NCBI GenBank assembly: GCA_028285755.1
Contig: JANQOQ010000010.1
Coordinates: 240,768 to 297,583, forward strand
Source of the DNA: Puniceicoccaceae bacterium
GTDB lineage: Bacteria > Verrucomicrobiota > Verrucomicrobiia > Opitutales > JAFGAQ01
Direction: 5' to 3'
Length of the DNA stretch: 56,816 bases
The notes beneath the pieces are model-generated. The model was not told where the DNA came from and made no database searches. It saw nothing but the letters and a program-made list of their open reading frames with translations. Shown here piece by piece: positions 55,510-56,816 of this stretch. The translations under genes and the position numbers were made by a program. Numbering within the stretch: the first letter of the stretch is position 1; each line of letters begins with the position of its first letter.

Positions 55510-55558
55510 AAATGGAGCGGGCGAAGAGACTCGAACCCTCGACAGCCACCTTGGCAAG
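55510..55558 (-). repeat. displaced 3' half of tRNA-Gly (candidate att site)
   Basis: These 49 bases repeat, with two mismatches, the 3' part of the complete tRNA-Gly at 56741-56816 (56738-56786). They run from the last base of the 5' anticodon stem through the anticodon GCC, T arm, acceptor end and CCA. Identity stops exactly at the anticodon stem. The 5' part is missing, so it cannot be a working tRNA. Both differences lie in the T arm (stem position 52 and the loop). Confidence 0.85.
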
Positions 55559-55723
55559 TAGTATCACTTTAGTGTTAACTAATTTCGAAACTGCTTTTAT
55601 AAAATAGTGAAGGTAGCCTCAAATTTTTCTCTTTTTAAGAGTTGTTCGTTTGTTAACAAGTGTATTTCTAATACGTATTCTCGACTCAAAATCTTTTCCA
55701 ATCCGAGTTTTATAGATCAGTTA
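55559..55723. other. AT-rich region before the hydrolase gene
   Basis: These 165 AT-rich bases lie between the tRNA half copy and the hydrolase ATG. CACT-TT-AGTG forms a small inverted repeat at 55566-55575 right next to the half copy, and GTTAAC occurs twice. The hydrolase frame is open upstream to an ATG at 55607, but that stretch does not look like protein. No clear promoter was found. Confidence 0.35.
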
Positions 55724-56704
55724 ATGAGAGTTAGATTATTGATTCTAGTGATTTCTTTTACCCTATTTTGCATAAAGGGTTTTGCGGAGAGCTACGGTTC
55801 TCAGTTTAGTCCAGGCACAGGTGTATTACATGTGGATGTTGGCATAGGCGAATCAGAAAAAGTGGTAGAGATATTTTACTACAAGCCTGTGGAGTTTAAC
55901 CAAGATTCCAACATCATTATGGTTATCCCGGGTGCGGGCAGAAATGCAGATGATTACAGAGATAGTTGGATAGATAGTGCTGATAAGTATAATCTGCTGG
56001 TATTGAGTCCCAGATATCCTGCAACAAACTATGATTTTGCAGCCTATCACCTGGGCGGTGTTGTTAAGGATTTGGAGTTAATTAATCCGAAGGTTGAAAG
56101 AATCAATGGGAGGATTTCCAAATATCGAATGAGAGATGAAGATATTCTTTTTTCTTTTGTTGAGGAGCCTAGCGATTACTTGTTTGGTGACTTCGATAAG
56201 ATATTTGATTGGGCAAAGGCAGCTACAAATAGTAATCAAGAATACTATGATCTTTTTGGTCATTCCGCGGGAGGGCAAATATTGCATCGGTATATTTTGT
56301 TCAACCCGGCTTCTCAAGCACGTCATGTAATAGCTGCTAACTCAGGTTTCTATACCCTGCCTGGTGATCCCTACCATTTTCCATTCGGGTTGGGAGGAAC
56401 TAAGATTAAGGGGGGCGATTTGGTAAGTTCGTTTTCAAGCTCTCTTATCGTTATGGTAGGCGAAGAGGATAATGTTAACGAAACGAGAGGTACAATGCTG
56501 CATACCCCTATTGCAGATGAACAAGGCCTTGGAAGATTGGAACGTGGTAATTACTTTTTCGAAAAGAGCCGTGCTCATGCAGAAGCCATAGGATCTCCGT
56601 TTAACTGGCAGTTTGAAGTTATACCTAATGTAGGGCACGAGTATCGGGAAATGGGTAAAGCAGCCGCAGATTATTTGTATTCTGAGGCGGTACGCAGCAA
56701 CTGA
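55724..56704 (+). CDS. secreted alpha/beta hydrolase
   Basis: This protein has an alpha/beta hydrolase fold with an N-terminal signal peptide (MRVRLLILVISFTLFCIKGF) and so is likely exported. The start is set at ATG 55724 because the signal begins there; the longer frame from 55607 adds 39 residues without a signal character. The nucleophile is the serine in DLFGHSAGGQILHR. The acid is probably in VMVGEEDNVNE, and the histidine in PNVGHEYREMG. IIMVIPGAGRNADDYRDSW resembles the oxyanion region. The length is 326 residues. The substrate is unknown (polyester or ester type is possible). It is the only gene inside the tRNA-Gly-bounded segment. Confidence 0.8.
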   Translation: MRVRLLILVISFTLFCIKGFAESYGSQFSPGTGVLHVDVGIGESEKVVEIFYYKPVEFNQDSNIIMVIPGAGRNADDYRDSWIDSADKYNLLVLSPRYPATNYDFAAYHLGGVVKDLELINPKVERINGRISKYRMRDEDILFSFVEEPSDYLFGDFDKIFDWAKAATNSNQEYYDLFGHSAGGQILHRYILFNPASQARHVIAANSGFYTLPGDPYHFPFGLGGTKIKGGDLVSSFSSSLIVMVGEEDNVNETRGTMLHTPIADEQGLGRLERGNYFFEKSRAHAEAIGSPFNWQFEVIPNVGHEYREMGKAAADYLYSEAVRSN

Positions 56705-56740
56705 TAACGTTAATTACAGCTCAACCCGTTGCTTAATAAA

Positions 56741-56816
56741 TGGAGCGGGCGAAGAGATTCGAACTCTCGACAGCCACCTTGGCAAGGTGGTGCTCTACCA
56801 ACTGAGCTACGCCCGC
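56741..56816 (-). tRNA. tRNA-Gly (anticodon GCC)
   Basis: The complete cloverleaf ends exactly at the right edge: acceptor GCGGGCG with CGCCCGC, D stem GCTC/GAGC, anticodon stem CCACC/GGTGG with loop TTGCCAA (GCC, glycine), T stem GAGAG/CTCTT with loop TTCGAAT, discriminator T and encoded CCA. It is the intact copy of the tRNA half seen at 55510-55558. Confidence 0.96.

Follow-up and report, generated by a model that had tools for sequence, protein, structure and literature searches.

A complete tRNA-Gly(GCC) gene and a copy of its 3′ half bound a short segment at one end of the 56,816-nucleotide stretch of Puniceicoccaceae DNA analyzed here (hereafter the window; G000:C3:240768-297583). The locus raises the question of whether a segment with one gene and no recombinase could have arisen by site-specific integration at the tRNA gene and, if so, how it came to be so small. 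The features concerned are listed below in window coordinates.

54194-55456, minus strand: ArsP_1 permease (PF03773, E 7e-40), ancestral 3′ neighbor of tRNA-Gly, just outside the insert
55513-55558, minus strand: 3′ half of tRNA-Gly (positions 31-76), probably displaced, at one end of the insert
55559-56740: inserted interior, 1182 bp, GC 0.398, missing from the empty site of G003
55724-56704, plus strand: PahZ1-like alpha/beta hydrolase, 326 aa, predicted to be secreted, the sole gene of the insert
56741-56816, minus strand: complete tRNA-Gly(GCC) (ARAGORN; Rfam RF00005, 70.6 bits), probably the restored gene, at the other end of the insert

The original prediction of a complete tRNA-Gly and a direct copy of its 3′ half, 1228 bases apart, was confirmed by ARAGORN and by alignment. 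The last base of the complete gene is the end of both the window and contig C3. The half copy lies on its 3′ side in the same orientation, at an offset of 1228, and matched the full gene at 44 of 46 bases; in shuffled 9-kb DNA these bases had a chance match of 22-24/46 at best. Three common bases beyond the CCA bring the copy to the predicted length of 49. The predicted start in the anticodon stem was refined to position 31, where the 5′ strand of that stem has its last base, and the copy runs from there through the loop to the 3′ end. Rejoining the flanks in silico gave an intact, perfect tRNA-Gly.

The two mismatches (A52 to G and A59 to G) occurred only in the half copy, while the full gene was identical to the tRNA-Gly of a relative, G004, at 76/76 bases. 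These mismatches had been ascribed either to age or to a donor att site differing from that of the host. Because the complete gene equals the unchanged gene of the relative, drift of a displaced, unneeded half would be the simplest reading, and a differing donor att fits less well.

Four same-family genomes, including G002, G003 and G004, were compared at this locus. An empty tRNA-Gly site, which the original prediction had said to look for in relatives, was found in G003: contig C204 carried a single tRNA-Gly, about 80 bp and then the start of the permease, with nothing between. The junction CCATTTTTTT was common to this tRNA-Gly-permease site and the half copy of the window. In G002 and G004 a sigma-54 response regulator still precedes tRNA-Gly, and this permease and the same methyltransferase follow it, with additional genes interspersed (short-chain dehydrogenase, KduI and IclR; subtilase and others). 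These extra genes were considered as other cargo between tRNA halves and rejected, as no half copy was found there. In the window genome the insert separates the regulator from the permease, and the displaced half occupies the ancestral permease-side position. Because the regulator, tRNA-Gly, permease order is kept in G002 and G004 and the site is empty in G003, the insert splits an old neighborhood.

On the regulator side the neighborhood crosses a contig boundary. Contig C15 ends with the regulator and a tRNA-Gly, and it overlaps C3 by exactly 99 bases (the tRNA plus 23). An overlap of exactly this length also joins three more contig pairs, so it is the word size of the assembler. We infer the link between tRNA-Gly and the upstream regulator from this overlap rather than from one contig. 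The break coincides exactly with the first 5′ nucleotide of tRNA-Gly (window 56816, the end of G000:C3; also the end of G000:C15), which suggests strain variation here or another tRNA-Gly context. An excised circle was rejected as the cause of the break, since its branch point would be tRNA position 31 and C3 begins at position 1.

The GC content of the interior (0.398) was below that of all 557 sampled equal-length windows within the 56.8-kb window. As predicted, the interior was more AT-rich than its neighbors, being the 1.18 kb with the highest AT content in the window. It also encoded, as predicted, only one substantial gene, that of the hydrolase, convergent with tRNA-Gly and 36 bp from it. 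The hydrolase matched PDB 9o7u (phmmer, E 9.3e-46), 6ve6 and 3d0k, with the GxSxG serine, the aspartate and the histidine aligned in the expected order; its matches to Pfam and NCBIfam were weak and under cut-off. A signal peptide was recognized by eye; export is predicted from sequence, as is the substrate. A whole-genome profile search for tyrosine recombinases (PF00589) had no match inside the insert, in keeping with the prediction that no recombinase gene is present.

The hydrolase was found in none of the four same-family genomes, and its close type occurred in only 2 of the 373 genomes of the order Opitutales, i.e., in one besides G000. In a tree it was sister to a Porticoccaceae (gammaproteobacterial) protein with support of 100/97, and its close relatives formed their own group, mostly from Bacteroidota and Proteobacteria. 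A 52% relative sits on a Saccharobesus plasmid. Because the gene is missing from the same-family genomes and groups with a gammaproteobacterial protein, it appears to be foreign, gained horizontally. In other genomes, no homologue of the hydrolase had a convincing half tRNA next to it.

All 37 tRNA genes of G000 were checked for 3′-half copies up to 20 kb downstream, or less near contig ends. Only three had an integration-shaped half copy: tRNA-Gly (from position 31), tRNA-Met (from position 31, 18.2 kb away) and tRNA-Ala (from position 27, 18.95 kb away). All three copies were on the 3′ side and in the orientation predicted by integration, and the remaining tRNAs had none within the surveyed range. 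A search for further half-tRNA segments had been proposed at the outset, and the Met and Ala segments share the same crossover region. This genome appears prone to integration at the anticodon loop.

The tRNA-Met segment (G000:C2:213620-233610, L232) is an 18-kb mobilizable element with three tyrosine recombinases, among which a 435-aa integrase lies at the distal end, and with NikA-like (NikA/MobC) and MobA-type relaxase genes. An internal tRNA-Ala-like half lies beside its 348-aa integrase. The element also encodes a SIR2-STAND defence-like protein. The tRNA-Ala segment (G000:C13:32230-52220, L233 896-19846) spans 19 kb from a full tRNA-Ala(GGC) to an exact 50-base half copy. It is a polysaccharide-use cluster containing a lyase, GH141, a sulfatase, LacI, a TonB receptor and MFS_2. 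The PF00589 search found no tyrosine recombinase in it, making it the second integrase-free tRNA-bounded segment of the genome. An empty site for the tRNA-Ala segment was not established, the upstream gene not being beside tRNA-Ala in relatives.

The genome had 13 tyrosine-recombinase matches in total. Integrases lay close beside one tRNA-Val and two tRNA-Leu genes; an integrase beside a tRNA-Gly, also proposed as a check, was not present. A related mobilizable element in G002:C17 (L072 5491-8610) has a half tRNA-Gly att site between its integrase and relaxase. This half starts in the anticodon loop and adjoins a 348-aa integrase that is 67% identical to the 348-aa integrase of G000. It is flanked by GTGCGCAC inverted repeats, which also occur in the G000 element, and the arm repeats are conserved. 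Because this element carries a half tRNA-Gly beside its 348-aa integrase, the tRNA-Gly anticodon loop is probably a target of this integrase type in the family. Viral contigs held no relatives of the hydrolase or of the 348-aa integrase and no match to the half-tRNA pattern.

Observed at the locus are the footprint, an empty site in a relative, a conserved flank order, an apparently foreign gene and no recombinase inside. Site-specific integration at tRNA-Gly, as originally proposed, is supported by the G003 empty site, the G002 and G004 flank order, the permease-side half, the rejoined flanks and the two further half-tRNA copies. Taking together a shrunken remnant, movement in trans and unlisted variants, integration is very probable.

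Of the two options first offered for the missing recombinase, mobilization in trans and a remnant shrunk by deletion, the remnant is favored as the most likely, with moderate confidence. Crossover at the anticodon loop would have brought an element with a tyrosine integrase into the only tRNA-Gly(GCC) gene. The element's own copy of the 3′ half would have restored the tRNA, and the original 3′ half would have been displaced toward the permease. Deletion would later have removed the integrase and whatever transfer genes there were, and a CIME-like remnant, kept for its cargo, would have been left with both att ends and one intact, putatively secreted PahZ1-like hydrolase. We infer the tyrosine integrase as agent, its former presence on the element and its removal by deletion. 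The 19-kb tRNA-Ala segment, likewise without an integrase, favors the remnant. Against it, no integrase fragment is left inside the insert, a larger ancestor was not seen, and well-placed deletions are needed to spare both ends and one whole gene. No longer form of the insertion was found among the 373 genomes of the order or the viral contigs.

The segment may instead never have been larger: a minimal 1228-bp circle with a half-tRNA-Gly att could have been moved in trans by an integrase encoded on a different island or on an element present only transiently. In favor of this, neither att end is damaged, the circle to be expected is a simple one, and the same genome has a second integrase-free tRNA-bounded segment. 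Candidate helpers exist among the 13 tyrosine-recombinase matches, including the 348-aa integrase with 67% identity to that beside the half tRNA-Gly of G002. However, the G000 enzyme has a tRNA-Ala-like att half, not a tRNA-Gly one; its arm repeats (GTGCGCAC and TTTCTGCGATTC) were missing from the segment ends on inspection, and no further copy of the segment turned up. Movement in trans is rated unlikely, while still the foremost competitor of the remnant.

A foreign fragment carrying a tRNA-Gly 3′ half could also have been joined by homologous recombination at the tRNA and illegitimate joining, without an integrase. The same footprint would be expected and no recombination gene lies inside, but the breakpoint falls at a standard integrase crossover region, as in two other islands of G000, which makes this route improbable. 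There is a somewhat slimmer chance still that tRNA halves serve as cassette ends in this genome, with mobilizable elements that bear half-tRNA att sites supplying the integrases that capture and move the 1.2-kb and 19-kb integrase-free cargoes in trans, in an integron-like traffic. Least probable of all is a decayed tandem-duplicate tRNA-Gly with the hydrolase inserted between the copies by another route: another genome of the order (G117) has two identical tRNA-Gly matches 124 bp apart and the contig break at the tRNA-Gly 5′ end could reflect a further copy, but the two full genes originally named as favoring duplication were found at the locus in none of the four same-family genomes, G003 has an empty site, and gradual decay is disfavored because the half copy ends at the anticodon loop, as in the two other islands, while its 3′ part is 96% intact.

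The locus means that a tRNA-bounded insertion can consist of one gene without an integrase. Together with the 19-kb tRNA-Ala segment, it bears on the extent to which catabolic cargo becomes fixed or travels in this way.

Among known systems, the segment resembles the tRNA/tmRNA islands of Islander with anticodon-centered att sites (class A; PMC4383910) in its full tRNA, its displaced 3′ fragment downstream in direct orientation and its anticodon-loop crossover, and an empty site is present in a relative. It differs in having no integrase and a length of 1228 bp. Islander covers lengths of 2-200 kb and rejects candidates that lack an integrase or are shorter than 2 kb (PMC4383910), so this segment would be discarded twice. 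Segments of this kind are thus removed by the usual island finder on two grounds, length and integrase content.

The segment is also like a CIME (PMC5704250), with att ends kept (here a candidate att, 44/46), no integration or transfer genes and intact cargo; unlike a CIME, it has a single gene, and no helper ICE or IME was seen in tandem. The integrase-less ssrA islands of Dehalococcoides (PMC3146451) share the att ends, the intact cargo and the lack of integration and transfer genes. For the cargo itself, the closest comparison is PahZ1, the poly(aspartic acid) hydrolase-1 of PDB 9o7u and 6ve6, an alpha/beta hydrolase that aligned through nucleophile, acid and histidine. PahZ1 of Pedobacter cleaves the beta-amide bonds of poly(Asp) (PMC4456602). 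The close relatives of the insert hydrolase form a separate group, and poly(aspartate) cleavage is putative.

An integron gene cassette is similar in being one gene in a small mobile unit, and the nearest in-order homologue of the hydrolase lies in an array with attC-like repeats in G031; the segment differs in being bounded by tRNA sequence. That array (G031:C56, L075 1-11192) includes the hydrolase homologue; its genes are unrelated and lie for the most part on the same strand, accompanied by attC-like repeats of about 55-100 bases. It has the look of an Opitutales attC cluster without an integrase. The integron integrase model gave nothing above cut-off in G000 or G031. No attC was recognized at the segment, but the scan pattern also missed the G031 sites and does not count as a negative. 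The segment ends fold no better than shuffles, and nothing seen here links the segment to integrons. Its kind is already known from tRNA islands and CIMEs, and its size and single-gene content are what is unusual.
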